Assembly (NCBI RefSeq): GCF_018860635.1
Contig: NZ_JAHKPT010000004.1
Coordinates: forward strand, 248,001-312,000
From: Aliiglaciecola lipolytica
GTDB taxonomy: Bacteria > Pseudomonadota > Gammaproteobacteria > Enterobacterales > Alteromonadaceae
Direction of reading: 5' to 3'
Length of the DNA stretch: 64,000 bases
Part shown: piece by piece, positions 49,364-59,082 of the stretch
Layout of the letters: the number at the start of each line of letters is the position of its first letter
Numbering within the stretch: position 1 is the first letter of the stretch
Position numbers and translations under genes: made by a program
Notes under the pieces: generated by a model
The model's input: only the letters and a program-made list of their open reading frames with translations
Told to the model about the DNA's origin: nothing
Database searches by the model: none

Positions 49364-49884
49364 TGTTTGTCCTTAACGTTACTTTTTAAAATTTTTCTTA
49401 GACAAGCGGGAGCGCTAAAATAGATTGGTTACAAGGTGGTTTATGTTCTTCAATCACTTTGTCACCAATGCTCTACTCGTTTAAGTCATGGTTTTATCAT
49501 TTTTTAAAATCAATAAAGTTGAGAGAAAATTGAGTGATTTCACACGCTTTTAATCGAAACGGTCTTGAGCATGTTTTAATGTGCATAGGCGAAATATAAT
49601 TGTGGATACTACTCAAGATTGAAGCTGTAAACAAAGTTAAAGATCAACAACAATTTGTCTAATGTACGGAATTTTAATATTGAATGGCTCCTTTATAAAT
49701 TAGCGATTCCTCTTACTAAAATGTGGAAACTACGTATAGAAGAGAACAAATTATGCAAACTTCACGTATTTACTTAGTTAACCATCAATTTACGCTCATA
49801 ATTTATGCTAATAAGTGAAATTTTTAAGGGGTAATTGAGCAAAGTATTAAGTAGTAACCACAATATGTTTTGCATATTCCCTTA
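49364..49884. other. Divergent intergenic region between hlyD-like and GNAT genes
   Basis: About 520 bases, AT-rich, with no convincing gene on either strand. The hlyD-rbbA-yhhJ promoter should lie near its left end. No strong repeat was noticed except the promoter elements listed next. Confidence 0.35.
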
Positions 49885-49922: not shown

Positions 49923-49953
49923 GAGAGTGTTTTGTTACCAAAGAGTATCAATT

Positions 49954-50481
49954 ATGACAGTAAGACTTACCACCGATCATTCCCATTTAAAAATTGGCAA
50001 ACTAGATGTCACAATTCGCCCCATTTCGATTGATGATCAAAACATAGAAGCTGAATTCGTTAAAAATCTTTCTGCGCAAAGTAAACACAACCGTTTCATG
50101 GAAGGGATAAGAGAATTATCTCCATCAATGTTGAAAAAAATGTGTGATATCGACTATGTAAATAATATGGCCTACATTGCCACCATTGAAGAAGATGGGA
50201 ATGAAACAGAAATTGGTGTGTGTCGCTATGTGAATGGTAAGCAAAAAAATGAACGGGAAATGGCGCTCGTTGTAGCCGATAAATACCAACACCTTGGTAT
50301 AGGCGCTGAGTTATTTAATCATCTATATGTGCATGCTAGAGCAAATTGTATTAAAAGACTGTATTCCATTGATTTACGCAGTAATACCAAAATGCATGAG
50401 TTCGCACAAAGTGTGGGAATGAAAATGGAATTAGATCCAGAAGATGATGCGCTGGTTATATACAGTATAGAGCCCTGCTAA
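49954..50481 (+). CDS. GNAT family N-acetyltransferase
   Basis: 175 residues from ATG 49954; a GTG at 49927 in the same frame sits too close to its only AGGAG. One GNAT domain: LDVTIRPISIDDQNIEAEFVKNLSAQSKHNRFMEGIRELSP, EIGVCRYVN, and the acetyl-CoA-binding MALVVADKYQHLGIGAELFNHLYVHARANCIKRLYSIDLRSNTKM (Q/RxxGxG/A-type motif QHLGIGAE). The opening ...RPISIDDQ...SxxSxxxRF resembles the acetyltransferase domain fused to acyl-CoA synthetases/Pat, so protein acetylation is possible but unproved. Single gene, convergent with glgC. Confidence 0.85.
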   Translation: MTVRLTTDHSHLKIGKLDVTIRPISIDDQNIEAEFVKNLSAQSKHNRFMEGIRELSPSMLKKMCDIDYVNNMAYIATIEEDGNETEIGVCRYVNGKQKNEREMALVVADKYQHLGIGAELFNHLYVHARANCIKRLYSIDLRSNTKMHEFAQSVGMKMELDPEDDALVIYSIEPC

Positions 50482-51839: not shown

Positions 51840-52259
51840 CTGCCTTCCTTTATTTCTAAAAATATAGTTAACGCTCGGATTTTGAAAAATGTTGTTAACA
51901 TCTGTAGAAGATATAGTGTTAATTTTTTAAGGGTGTGTCGTAACGCCAATAAAACTAAGTTTACGGTTCACATCAGGATTGGGTTATTGGAGATTTCTCG
52001 TAATTAATTGTGGGAAATACGTACTTTTGAATCATGTTTTTGTGGGGATTATTTTTTACCAACCGTTTTTTGTCAAAAAACGGCTTATTAAAGCCAAAAC
52101 ATCCGAAAATTAAAGACAATTTGCGCAATTGGGAATTTATCTAATGTAATCATGGAATTAAAAACGACAGCTAAATAGTTGATTTAGTTTTACGATATCT
52201 ATTAGGGATTTCCACAGGTTAGTCTCGCGCATTTAGCGGTAACCCCCAATATTCTGATT
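51840..52259. other. Intergenic region upstream of glgC
   Basis: No protein gene. It should contain the glgC promoter (minus strand). A perfect stem CCGTTTTTT/AAAAAACGG with a 3-nt loop is at 52063-52083, followed at once by a GGCTT/AAGCC hairpin (52082-52095). Confidence 0.4.
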
Positions 52260-52378
52260 AAGCGATAGTAGTTAAGCTATTCCTGTGTAGACATATACAC
52301 AGCAACTACCTGAAACAAAGGTTTCAGTTCCTCTTTGGAGTTCATCACATCCAACCATAGATGGACTCCATTTTTTTA
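52260..52378 (+). ncRNA. Candidate structured small RNA ending in an intrinsic terminator
   Basis: Three successive hairpins on the plus strand. (1) An outer GTAGTT/AACTAC pair (52268-52273, 52304-52309) encloses CTGTGTA/TACACAG (52283-52289, 52296-52302). (2) CTGAAAC/GTTTCAG with an AAAG tetraloop (52310-52327). (3) TGGAGTTCATC/GATGGACTCCA (52336-52346, 52360-52370; one G-U wobble) followed by T7 (52371-52377). Only the plus orientation carries the T run, and no plus-strand gene precedes it for more than 1.7 kb, so the terminator is not that of a protein gene. It ends just at the stop codon of the fixJ-like gene on the other strand. The 5' end and promoter are undetermined. Confidence 0.6.
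52336..52377 (+). terminator. Strong plus-strand intrinsic terminator of the candidate small RNA
   Basis: 11-bp stem with a single G-U wobble, 13-nt loop and seven T's. The fixJ-like gene is on the opposite strand, where no T run follows the stem. Confidence 0.85.
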
Positions 52379-52379
52379 T

Positions 52380-52988
52380 TTACTGTTCCGACAGTATTTT
52401 TATTCGCACTAGTTGCGCCAAGGTTTTTGCGCCAAGTTTTTCCATAACGTGGGAGCGATGAACCTCAACGGTTCGCTCACTGATATTTAACTCAGACGCA
52501 ATCATTTTATTCATTGCCCCTTCGGTAACTAAATTGAATACTTCCTTTTCTCGATTAGACAGAAGACTGATTTTTCTGACTTCCTTCTGCTTATTATCAA
52601 TACTGGCATTTTGTTTGGAGTTTAACGCTAGGGCTTCATTGATTCGGTCAATTAAATTTTGATCATTAAAGGGTTTTCGGATGAAGTCAATAGCACCGTT
52701 TCGCATAGCTTCAACTGCCATCGGTATATCACCATGGCCTGTGATAAAAATGATAGGTAACAAACTATTTAGTTCTTTAAGCTTTAATTGTAATTCTAAA
52801 CCACTCATTTTCGGCATTCTAATATCGAGTACGATGCACCCTTTCATGTCGTCATTGAACTCTTTCAAAAACTCCTGGCCATTCACAAAGCTTTTAGCAT
52901 TAAGTCCAATCGATGCAAGCAACATTTCCATTCCATCACGGATAGCTTCGTCATCGTCGATGATATATACCGTTTGCTGATCAGTCAT
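52380..52988 (-). CDS. fixJ: FixJ-like response regulator
   Basis: 202 residues. Receiver domain (1-120) with acidic DDD at 11-13, phospho-acceptor Asp55 (CIVLDIRMPKMSG), Thr83 (FITGHGD) and Lys105 (FIRKPF). C-terminal LuxR/FixJ helix-turn-helix (about 138-200) with LSNREKEVFNLVTEGAMNKMIASELNISERTVEVHRSHVMEKLGAK. It overlaps the kinase gene by eight bases, so the two are translated together. The FITGHGDIPMAVEAMRNGAIDFIRKPF pattern is that of the FixJ/NarL-like subgroup that partners PAS kinases. Target genes are not shown by the sequence; the nearby cbb3 operon is a candidate. Confidence 0.9.
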   Translation of the reverse strand: MTDQQTVYIIDDDEAIRDGMEMLLASIGLNAKSFVNGQEFLKEFNDDMKGCIVLDIRMPKMSGLELQLKLKELNSLLPIIFITGHGDIPMAVEAMRNGAIDFIRKPFNDQNLIDRINEALALNSKQNASIDNKQKEVRKISLLSNREKEVFNLVTEGAMNKMIASELNISERTVEVHRSHVMEKLGAKTLAQLVRIKILSEQ

Positions 52989-55386
52989 GTGTTTTTCCTC
53001 CTGAAATGGGTAGCGTAAAATAAAAAACGGTCCCGTATGGTTTATTATCTTTGAACATTAAGTGTCCACCATGTTCTTCAATAATTGATTTGGAAATTGA
53101 CAACCCAATCCCCATTCCATTCTTTTTGGTTGTGCTAAATGGCGTATAAAGTTCGTCTTTTAACTTTTGAGATAAACCACACCCTGTATCTTCTATCGAA
53201 ATCTGAAACGTGTTTGCTTCGCTTTGAGACGCTCTAATTGTTAATACATTACCATTTTTAAAGTCAATTGCTTGCATTGATTCCATGGCGTTTCGCAATA
53301 AATTCAGTATCACTTGTTGGATCTGTACTCGGTCAACAAAGACAGCAACATGCTGGTCACCCGTTTCTACCTGAATCAATATTTCATGTAAGCGTGAAAT
53401 AGGTTCAATTAATTTTATGACCTCTTCGATTAATATATTGCTATCAACCGCTTCTTTTTGACTATCGCCTTTTCTAGTCATTATTTGCACACGCTCCAAA
53501 ACACTGCCAGCACGAAGTGATTGTTGAGTTAATTTATCTAATAACTCAGGGAGCATTTCGAAATTTTGTTTTTCGCACATATTTTTAGCAGTTGCTGAAA
53601 ATAATGCTATTGCGGTCAGTGGTTGATTAATTTCATGGGCAACTGCAACGGCCATTTCCCCTAACGCATTTAAGCGATCAAAGTGAGCTAATTGTTCGGT
53701 TAATCGACGAGTTTTATCTTCTGAAGCTATTTGCTCGGTAATATCTCGAATTAAACCAACAAATACTCTGCCCTCGGGATTAACAATTTCACTGACCGAT
53801 AAATGAATAGGAAACATTGAACCATCTTTGCGCTTGGCCGTTAACACACGTCCAGTTCCAATAATATGAGTTTCATTTGTTTCTAAGTACTTAGCTAAGT
53901 ACTGATCATGTTGCTCACTTTGACGCTGAGGCATTAAAATTTTTACGTTTTTGTCTTTGATTTCTTTAAAAGAGTAGCCAAACATCTTGAGGGCAGCTTT
54001 ATTGAAACTTTTTATATTGCCCTTTTGGTCGATGGTAATAACCGCCTCAACCACTGAATTAACAATTGCCTCAGAAAATGCGTGGCTATGTATCAAGTCA
54101 GCTTGTGCTTGTTTAATAGAAGTTATATCGGTTATGAACCCCTCCAATATAAAGTCTTCTGTTAAATGGGAACGTACCGGCTCTCCTCTTTCCCAAACAT
54201 ACTTAATTTCATTGTTTTTTGTCACTATCCGATATTCAAATTCAAAGCGTCGTTGTTGCTTTACTGCCTTGTCGACTAATTTCACAATCCGTTCATAGTC
54301 ATCGGGATGAATGATTTGTCCCCAAATAATGCTATCTCTTGCGAATTCATCTTTAGAATATCCAGTTAATTCTTCACATTCCTCGTTTACCAATATTATT
54401 GGCCATCCTTTTTCGTTAAAGGATTGATATGCCATCCCTGGTAACATTTTTAAAAAATGTTCAGTTTTTTTACGATCATCCTTTATGTATTTTTCTTTTC
54501 TGCGTGACAGCAAAACAGCATAAAAAGCAAGTGCCACAAAAAAGCTGAGCAGTACACCGAGCAAGGTTAAAATTTTGATTATTCGATAATGTTTGTGGGC
54601 TAAAAACTCATTGGTAGGTGCAATATTGATTTGCCAATTTTGGCCTTCAAGTGTAAATGCTGCGTGTTTATTCCATCGAGTATCAATTAAATTACTAGTG
54701 AGTGTATTTGGATAGATACGTAGACCATCTACAGTCAACAGTATTTGATGGTCAGACAATAAATAAGAAGGCAGTACTTCTTTAAAATAGGTGTTAAAAA
54801 GAAACACGCTGCCGATAAAACCTTGTAATTGTTTTGTGCTGCCAAGACCTTTAAAAAACGGTGCGTATATTCCGAAACCGGATTTTCCATCCACTGAAGA
54901 AATAGGAATTGTGAATGCTGAATGAGTGCTATTTTGAGCTTTCACGGCTGCAGATAACGACGCTGAAACAGCATTTAAATCAATATTTAATGCTATTTCG
55001 TTCTGTTCAACGGGCAACACTTTTTTTACTTGAAAAGTACTGTCAACCCAGCTAATTGCTTGATAACCCTGTTGCGTATCATACAAAGTTTGTGCAATTA
55101 AATTCCAATCGGCATCGGATAAATTATTCGATATTTTGGATAGTTGAGCAAATTCTGTCAATGACACAATTCGTGTGTTTATATCTTCCTCTAACAATAT
55201 TTTAATTTTGTTAGCGGTAGTTTGAGTTACATTGTCGATATAAGCACGTTCTTGCGTCTCAATGTACAAAATTAGAAAAGCGATTAGTGCCGAAGTAACT
55301 GCGCCAGCGATAACCGCATAAATAAGAATAGCGATCTGTGGAGAAAAACTAATACGCCATTTGTTGGTGTTTATTTTCTTTTCCAT
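52981..55386 (-). CDS. CHASE-PAS-PAS histidine kinase, FixL-like with haem-pocket residues
   Basis: 801 residues. TM1 about 18-40, a periplasmic CHASE domain (about 41-268), TM2 about 269-293, PAS1 (about 309-425), PAS2 (about 435-553), then HisKA with His584 (AVAHEINQPLTAI) and a HATPase with NLLRNAMESM, DTGCGLS, GMGIGLSISKSI. PAS2 aligns with FixL: MPQRQSEQHDQYLAKYLE...THIIGTGR puts His493 at the FixL haem-ligand His200 position, with His507 and Arg513 at H214 and R220 (B. japonicum numbering, from memory). The kinase thus may sense O2 through haem and a second signal through CHASE. Coupled to the fixJ-like gene. Confidence 0.88.
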   Translation of the reverse strand: MEKKINTNKWRISFSPQIAILIYAVIAGAVTSALIAFLILYIETQERAYIDNVTQTTANKIKILLEEDINTRIVSLTEFAQLSKISNNLSDADWNLIAQTLYDTQQGYQAISWVDSTFQVKKVLPVEQNEIALNIDLNAVSASLSAAVKAQNSTHSAFTIPISSVDGKSGFGIYAPFFKGLGSTKQLQGFIGSVFLFNTYFKEVLPSYLLSDHQILLTVDGLRIYPNTLTSNLIDTRWNKHAAFTLEGQNWQINIAPTNEFLAHKHYRIIKILTLLGVLLSFFVALAFYAVLLSRRKEKYIKDDRKKTEHFLKMLPGMAYQSFNEKGWPIILVNEECEELTGYSKDEFARDSIIWGQIIHPDDYERIVKLVDKAVKQQRRFEFEYRIVTKNNEIKYVWERGEPVRSHLTEDFILEGFITDITSIKQAQADLIHSHAFSEAIVNSVVEAVITIDQKGNIKSFNKAALKMFGYSFKEIKDKNVKILMPQRQSEQHDQYLAKYLETNETHIIGTGRVLTAKRKDGSMFPIHLSVSEIVNPEGRVFVGLIRDITEQIASEDKTRRLTEQLAHFDRLNALGEMAVAVAHEINQPLTAIALFSATAKNMCEKQNFEMLPELLDKLTQQSLRAGSVLERVQIMTRKGDSQKEAVDSNILIEEVIKLIEPISRLHEILIQVETGDQHVAVFVDRVQIQQVILNLLRNAMESMQAIDFKNGNVLTIRASQSEANTFQISIEDTGCGLSQKLKDELYTPFSTTKKNGMGIGLSISKSIIEEHGGHLMFKDNKPYGTVFYFTLPISGGKTHD

Positions 55387-58134: not shown

Positions 58135-58611
58135 ATGAAAGGTCAAGCCAATATATTAGCAGCTCTGAATGAGGTGCTAACCACTGAGCTTACGTCTATC
58201 AACCAATATTTTTTGCATGCGAGGATGTATAAAAATTGGGGATTAGAAAAACTGAATTCAGTTTGTTATAAAAAGTCTATAAAAGACATGAAACAAGCCG
58301 ACGAGTTAATTGAACGTATTTTGTTTCTAGAAGGTCTGCCTAACTTGCAAATGCTTGGAAAGCTATATATTGGTGAAGAAACCGTTGAAATGTTGCAGTG
58401 CGACAGTAAGTTTCAATTAGAACAAATTCCCAAGCTGAAAAATGTGATTGCTCTTTGCGAATCTGAACAAGATTACGTATCTCGCGATTTATTAGAAGAA
58501 ATATTGGAATATGAAGAAGCGCATTTGGATTGGTTAGAAACACAAGAATACCAAATTTCAGCGTTAGGTTTGGAAAATTACTTGCAAACGCAAGTGGGCT
58601 CGGGAGATTAA
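58135..58611 (+). CDS. bfr: Bacterioferritin subunit, haem-type with altered ferroxidase centre
   Basis: 158 residues, same length as E. coli Bfr, starting MKGQANILAALNEVLTTEL and containing INQYFLHARMYKNWGLEKLN, IERILFLEGLPNLQMLGKL, QDYVSRDLLEEIL. Haem ligand Met52 is kept. The ferroxidase centre is changed: Glu18, Glu127 and His130 remain, but Glu51 is Asp and His54 is Gln (YKKSIKDMKQAD). It probably forms the haem-bearing, poorly ferroxidase-active chain of a mixed 24-mer with the next gene product. Four bases separate the two genes, so one operon. Two-type bacterioferritins are known in Neisseria and Pseudomonas-like bacteria. Confidence 0.95.
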   Translation: MKGQANILAALNEVLTTELTSINQYFLHARMYKNWGLEKLNSVCYKKSIKDMKQADELIERILFLEGLPNLQMLGKLYIGEETVEMLQCDSKFQLEQIPKLKNVIALCESEQDYVSRDLLEEILEYEEAHLDWLETQEYQISALGLENYLQTQVGSGD

Positions 58612-58614
58612 GTT

Positions 58615-59082
58615 ATGAAAGGTAATCAAATAATAATAGATTCATTAAATGGCTTGCTAGCCTATGAATTGGCAGCAATGGATCAATACTTCATCCATTC
58701 TCAAATGTATGACGATTGGGGATTAACTAAACTTCATGAGCGTATTGCCCATGAATTTGATGATGAAAAGGGTCACGCCACTAAGCTAATTGAACGTATG
58801 TTATTTTTAGAAGGCACTCCCGACATGACAGTGCGTTCAGGATTCAAAGTCGGTAAAGACGTGCTTGAAATGTTGGAAAGTGATTTGCGCGTTGAATACA
58901 CGGTTACAGACGAACTAAAGAAAACAATCGCCCTGTGTGAAGCGGAAAAAGATTATGTGACCAGAGATATGCTAATGGTCTTATTAGAAGACACCGAAAT
59001 GGATCATGCACATTGGTTAGAACAACAAATAGGCCTAATCAAACGTCTTGGCTTACCTAACTACTTGCAGTCACAAATGTAA
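58615..59082 (+). CDS. bfr: Bacterioferritin subunit, ferroxidase-active, non-haem type
   Basis: 155 residues, starting MKGNQIIIDSLNGLLAYELAAMDQYFIHSQMYDDWGL. All ferroxidase ligands are conserved: Glu18, Glu51 and His54 (FDDEKGHA), and the C-terminal pair in LEDTEMDHAHWLE at the E127/H130 positions. Position 52 is Lys instead of the haem-binding Met, so this chain cannot form the bis-Met haem site. It is complementary to the preceding subunit (haem Met kept, ferroxidase residues lost). It stores iron as a ferric core; co-expression probably gives a hetero-oligomer. Confidence 0.95.
   Translation: MKGNQIIIDSLNGLLAYELAAMDQYFIHSQMYDDWGLTKLHERIAHEFDDEKGHATKLIERMLFLEGTPDMTVRSGFKVGKDVLEMLESDLRVEYTVTDELKKTIALCEAEKDYVTRDMLMVLLEDTEMDHAHWLEQQIGLIKRLGLPNYLQSQM

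Follow-up and report, generated by a model that had tools for sequence, protein, structure and literature searches.

What does an intrinsic terminator end where no gene precedes it? In the window, i.e., the whole stretch of 64,000 nt analyzed here, a sequence-only reading had described three hairpins followed by seven T residues on the plus strand, with no protein gene on that strand for more than 1.7 kb upstream, and had proposed an independent transcript. Direct reading of the sequence bears out the hairpins and the T run (Table 1). The nearest plausible plus-strand gene upstream (GNAT, 49927-50481) ends 1.8 kb away, as claimed, and glgC and the fixJ-like gene are both on the minus strand. 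The locus thereby shows the intergenic setting, the stem followed by a U run and the lack of a gene just upstream on the same strand that are looked for in an intergenic sRNA with intrinsic termination. We consider it fairly probable that this is a stand-alone gene for a trans-acting regulatory sRNA, complete from promoter to terminator and probably under the adjacent FixL/FixJ-like system. An independent plus-strand unit is supported at the level of sequence by a promoter region with a recurrent site layout, the terminator, conservation and the tie to the FixL/FixJ-like pair, and the case for an sRNA further draws on dispersed copies and on the lack of a conserved ORF. In kind, it would be an ordinary intergenic sRNA, whose family is, as far as searched, new relative to Rfam 15 and the open-licence literature.

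Table 1. Features of the putative sRNA locus and its neighbors (positions in the window).
Feature	Position	Strand	Basis and remarks
Upstream regulator site CTGTGGAAATCCCTAA	52202..52217	-	Putative; inverted in this genome; top PWM match in the window (17.1)
Downstream regulator site TAGCGGTAACCCCCAA	52234..52249	+	Putative; third PWM match (15.9); 32 bp from the upstream site
-10-like hexamer CAATAT	52247..52252	+	Predicted promoter element
sRNA, ~119 nt	52259..52377	+	Conservation, no conserved ORF; 5' end predicted from the -10 position
Hairpin 1, inner stem	52283-52289/52296-52302	+	Sequence and fold; re-forms with changed bases in G003 (by eye), none seen beyond
Hairpin 2, perfect 7-bp stem	52310-52316/52321-52327	+	AAAG loop in this genome
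C/U-rich linker UUCCUCUU	52328..52335	+	Approximately CAACCUCUUU in several relatives; candidate seed, predicted to pair
Intrinsic terminator (hairpin 3)	52336-52377	+	11-bp stem 52336-52346/52360-52370, 13-nt loop with CCAACC, T7 at 52371-52377
FixJ-like response regulator (receiver and LuxR-type HTH)	52380..52988	-	Pfam; convergent to the sRNA, candidate regulator
FixL-like PAS histidine kinase	52981..55386	-	Pfam; CHASE match sub-threshold

The segment 52250-52390 folds with -37.6 kcal/mol (z = -4.78), and none of 200 shuffles folds equally well. The outer stem of hairpin 1, which is read from the sequence at 52268-52273/52304-52309, is absent from this fold and from that of the RNA alone. 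A strict terminator scan of the 64-kb window (perfect stem of at least 9, loop of at most 14, T6 or more; limits chosen after hairpin 3 had been seen) yields two sites, hairpin 3 and 29638-29615 on the minus strand, and no site in six first-order Markov surrogates. A simpler scan with a loop limit of 8 omits hairpin 3. The site at 29638-29615 (-), the sole other one in the strict scan, has a 10-bp stem with six GC pairs, followed by T7.

Plain DNA searches recover few relatives of the locus. Two of 40 relatives matched (the own genome, G000, and G003), strong matches were obtained in three of nine genomes of the genus (the own genome, G040 of the same species and the congener G003), the plasmids gave no match, and the hairpin-2 pattern occurs in the own genome only among 247 genomes of the order. 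Synteny, with the fixJ-like protein as anchor, succeeded where this direct search gave few relatives. The protein is matched at E 1e-64 or better in 21 of 395 genomes of the bacterial family, and 12 of these 21 (own genome counted) have fixJ orthologs at 66% identity or more. In nine of the 12 (G000, G040, G003, G522, G511, G561, G490, G533, and G160), the sRNA block is convergent to fixJ and consists of a promoter site, a -10-like hexamer, a variable middle, the linker, and the terminator. The block is missing beside fixJ in G491, G059, and G508, where the model search described below is also without a match and where one promoter site is retained in G508 (by eye); for the nine more distant fixJ matches there is no block in the 420 bases examined and no model match. 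Identity to G003, with gaps counted as differences, is 85% over 52283-52377 (95 positions) vs. 64% over the other 445 intergenic positions, and two further 40-base intergenic blocks (51880-51919 and 51960-51999) reach 78%.

A first covariance model, built from the nine fixJ-side sequences and run on the 395 genomes of the bacterial family, matches 15 places in 12 genomes (14 in 11 without the marginal G134), nine of which are its own building sequences and match by construction. The match in G134 (E 0.07) was set aside, as no promoter site is visible there by eye. Five copies are new, namely second copies in G511, G490, and G561 (the last weak, E 0.013) and single copies in G161 and G393, and none of them adjoins a close fixJ ortholog. 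The overlap between the genomes with fixJ orthologs and the 11 model-positive ones among the 395 has P ~2e-14, a value that ignores kinship such as that of G040 and G000. A second model, made from 13 sequences, finds 10 places in seven of the 22 genomes of the genus of G511; among 394 genomes of the order it matches only the own genome, under strict filters that can miss weak members. Based on these searches, the RNA family appears to be restricted to three genera (g1, g3, and g5) of one gammaproteobacterial family.

The dispersed copies of G490, G161, and G393 are divergent from a second GAPDH gene and that of G511 is near a fumarase gene, while genes resembling nhaA and PRC-barrel genes (named by eye) are found beside the G511 and G561 copies. 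Among 12 genomes checked, relatives of the second GAPDH gene (L196, L197, and L198) at 93% identity or more occur only in G393, G490, and G161, and G059 has a 62% match.

Which parts of the RNA are maintained in the family? In the alignment of 13 sequences, the terminator hairpin is the sole conserved structure, with 91.5% of the stem cells paired vs. 28-55% when the stem is slid. Covariation in this stem does not exceed that of shuffles, 130 of 500 of which reach the same level, and hence the support for the stem is conservation, not compensation. Furthermore, the consensus hairpin does not form in single-sequence folds of G561 and G533, and the terminator stems of G511 and G561 are weakened. 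The three hairpins that had been described are thus not the conserved form, as only hairpin 3 recurs in the alignment: hairpin 2 is common only to the own genome, G003, and G040 (in G003 with the stem kept and the loop altered), and G003 does not retain the outer stem of hairpin 1. The motif CCAA(C/G)C is present in the terminator loop of seven of eight fixJ-side rows (CCAACC in six, CCAAGC in G160, neither in G490) and is unpaired in the predicted folds of G000, G003, G522, G511, and G160 and partly paired in those of G561 and G533. No dispersed copy has CCAACC or CCAAGC in its terminator loop; CCAAC is present in the linker of G393b and G490b.

Upstream of the RNA, the -10-like hexamer (TAATAT, TAACAT, CAATTT, TTATTT, or TTATAT in relatives) directly follows the downstream site in every one of the 13 alignment rows except G561b. 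A second 16-bp site is located 31-32 bp further upstream in 10 of the 13 copies (32 bp in nine, 31 in G160). This upstream site is degenerate in G003 and was not found in G511b, and G561b is without any site. The PWM scores in Table 1 derive from 15 sites of other genomes, with G000 and G003 left out. As the maxima in 10 surrogates range from 11.8 to 20.7, comparable single-site scores arise by chance, and we therefore place weight on the pair of sites and its position rather than on single scores. In the own genome, a pattern search gave 67 matches with up to three mismatches vs. 41 for the reversed control, and the upstream site is the best match of a longer pattern (one mismatch). Of the 65 other matches, 15 were inspected; 14 are within ORFs, although C33:52612 falls right where its frame begins, and the remaining one lies immediately beyond the end of an ORF. 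The paired-site layout and the genome-wide pattern search make it likely that a regulator acts at the sRNA promoter. The downstream site extends to the -10 hexamer, which is an odd position for an activator.

The adjacent FixJ-like protein is the natural candidate for this regulator. The scores miss the NCBIfam equivalog cut-offs (234.5 of 255 bits for FixJ, 365 of 850 for FixL); hence we call the proteins FixL/FixJ-like only, and oxygen sensing should not be assumed. G161 and G393, which carry the RNA together with only a 52% and a 49% relative of the FixJ-like protein, respectively, weigh against control by the FixJ-like protein. Weaker relatives of the promoter site are found at 49600-49615 (+), 49721-49736 (+), 49848-49863 (-), and 52008-52023 (+), with the form TTGTGGNNACTACNTA upstream of the GNAT gene and TTGTGGGAAATACGTA upstream of glgC. 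The last three are retained in G003, and the PWM scores of these weaker sites are within the chance range; these sequences near GNAT and glgC possibly respond to the same regulator. A CrbR (ACTU) site was rejected as an identity for the promoter site, since the matched sequences printed for CrbR differ from it by eye (PMC5715377).

In the mechanism that we propose, transcription would start at the -10-like hexamer, preceded by the 16-bp protein site and by a second copy mostly 32 bp, i.e., about three helix turns, upstream, and would end at the intrinsic terminator. The FixL/FixJ-like system most likely controls this promoter. The RNA would then most likely work in trans, through base pairing of the C/U-rich linker and, in fixJ-side copies, also of the CCAACC terminator loop with mRNAs, aided by a chaperone such as Hfq.

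A consistent target did not emerge among 101 start regions tested for five copies, nor was there consistent pairing with fixL, fixJ, glgC, gapA, ppsA, or the GNAT gene (30 mononucleotide shuffles for each mRNA test). For fixL, G511 (0/30) and G490 (0.03) stand out and the other six tests do not, while none of eight fixJ tests does (lowest 0.07, G003); glgC gave 1.0, 0.17, and 1.0, ppsA 0.9, and GNAT 0.63 and 0.13. Dispersed copies tested against the adjacent second gapA gave 0.03 in both cases (G490 and G161), and complementary runs to this gene are present in G490 and G393. The own gapA ranks 2 among the 101 start regions for G490b and 60 for G161b; for the G393 copy, whose own gapA start is outside the tested set, gapA relatives rank 53 and 75. 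The top-ranked start region for the RNA of the window is the gapA of another genome, which indicates noise in the ranking, and we do not claim gapA as a target.

The searches for known RNAs returned no match to 4227 Rfam models at gathering thresholds, neither in the window nor in six relative loci; sub-threshold scores at 51840-52400 are 18.8 bits of 40 for ar15 and 17.8 of 42 for McaS. An account of this sRNA was not found in the open-licence literature searched. ArcZ, a trans-acting sRNA that adjoins arcB in enterobacteria, is likewise convergent to a two-component gene, and the Qrr sRNAs of Vibrio are likewise multicopy, with one beside the regulator gene luxO, although LuxO works with sigma-54. 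Unlike both, the RNA of the window is without any Rfam match, and ArcZ is not known to have a counterpart to the dispersed copies. In Pseudomonas, CbrAB and CrcZ/CrcY/CrcX comprise an sRNA gene beside a two-component system, related sRNAs elsewhere, and several promoter subsites, with crcZ depending on sigma-N and CrcZ binding the Crc/Hfq complex (PMC8871633). The adjoining two-component system, the further copies, and the several regulator sites at the promoter are shared with our locus, whereas the regulator here is of the FixJ/LuxR type, no sigma-54 element is recognized by eye, and the sRNA and the regulator gene converge. Aln1a-c of Alteromonas macleodii, probably from the same bacterial order, also occur in copies, but these proposed CsrA-sequestering sRNAs are clustered in one 404-bp intergenic region (PMC5864184), while the copies here are dispersed.

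Does the position beside fixJ imply that the RNA acts on its neighbor, as the sequence-only reading had considered besides action in trans? An RNA that acts in cis as antisense to the 3' part of the fixLJ mRNA, or that this mRNA binds, would be in line with the convergent layout. The hairpin of the sRNA is without a T run on the minus strand and a terminator-like minus-strand site lies beyond the sRNA (52096-52081), such that a fixLJ transcript reaching it may cover the whole sRNA. However, two bases separate the T run from the fixJ frame (52380) and the fixJ coding sequence is thus not overlapped. The distance from the RNA end to the frame is 2 bp in G000, G040, and G003, but ~50-185 bp in the other six of the nine genomes. 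The five further copies are not beside a close fixJ ortholog, on account of which we reject antisense to fixJ as the general function and regard this explanation as unlikely. The RNA might instead titrate a protein, in the way of CsrB and CsrA or of CrcZ and Hfq/Crc, and not act by pairing with mRNAs. In its favor, the cbrAB-crcZ layout similarly combines a two-component system, an adjacent sRNA, and further copies (PMC8871633). Yet the AANAAYAA motif is present in none of the 13 copies, unlike in CrcZ, which also speaks against membership in CrcZ/CrcY. Nor was a GGA found in a hairpin loop, the feature examined for membership in CsrB/RsmZ and a further difference from Aln1a-c: the 13 RNAs have 0-3 GGA triplets each, mostly in predicted stems, and those that are partly unpaired lie, to judge from the folds, elsewhere than in hairpin loops. 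A titrating RNA is thus improbable.

Two further explanations would do without an autonomous regulatory RNA. The block could be conserved DNA, made of operator sites and a leftover terminator, and it is true that conservation is highest at the sites in some copies and that covariation is weak. Against this, the linker and the terminator stem stay alike, at much the same spacing from the promoter, while the middle diverges, and a plus-strand terminator without an upstream gene would have nothing to end, which makes this explanation distinctly improbable. Alternatively, the RNA could belong to a longer transcript, as its 3' or 5' untranslated region, or could encode a small protein. In G490, ppsA precedes the RNA on the same strand, and ATG frames of 37 codons in G533 and 30 codons in G160 stay open up to the RNA end. 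In the window, however, a plausible plus-strand gene is lacking within 1.8 kb upstream, and conserved sites are found just before the RNA. No ORF frame is shared among the 13 sequences, due to which the small-protein reading was rejected, and the three longest frames in the RNA of the own genome comprise 14 codons, 5 codons, and one codon, the first two extending beyond the RNA end. We consider this explanation very improbable.

Returning to a trans-acting sRNA, we tentatively suggest, as a real possibility, that the multicopy family could constitute the output arm of the FixL/FixJ-like system in marine Alteromonadaceae-type bacteria. It might then be an independently evolved counterpart of CbrAB-CrcZ, with two operator copies spaced by three helix turns and with sRNA copies beside the carbon-metabolism genes glgC, ppsA, second gapA, and fumC. 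If so, marine carbon-cycling bacteria would have a conserved and so far undescribed riboregulator family tied to a sensor-regulator pair, the defined promoter layout would make the regulator testable, and the homolog set would allow annotation of the RNA in other genomes. The glgC product of the window is 74% identical to a named relative from Paraglaciecola arctica, by which the source is probably a member of the Alteromonadaceae close to Paraglaciecola. Two bacterioferritin genes lie side by side at 58135-59082 (+), ~3 kb beyond the FixL-like gene. A strong match to the promoter site (20.0) is also present in G522 at L201:2539-2554 (+), ~75 bp upstream of a gene for an outer-membrane efflux protein.
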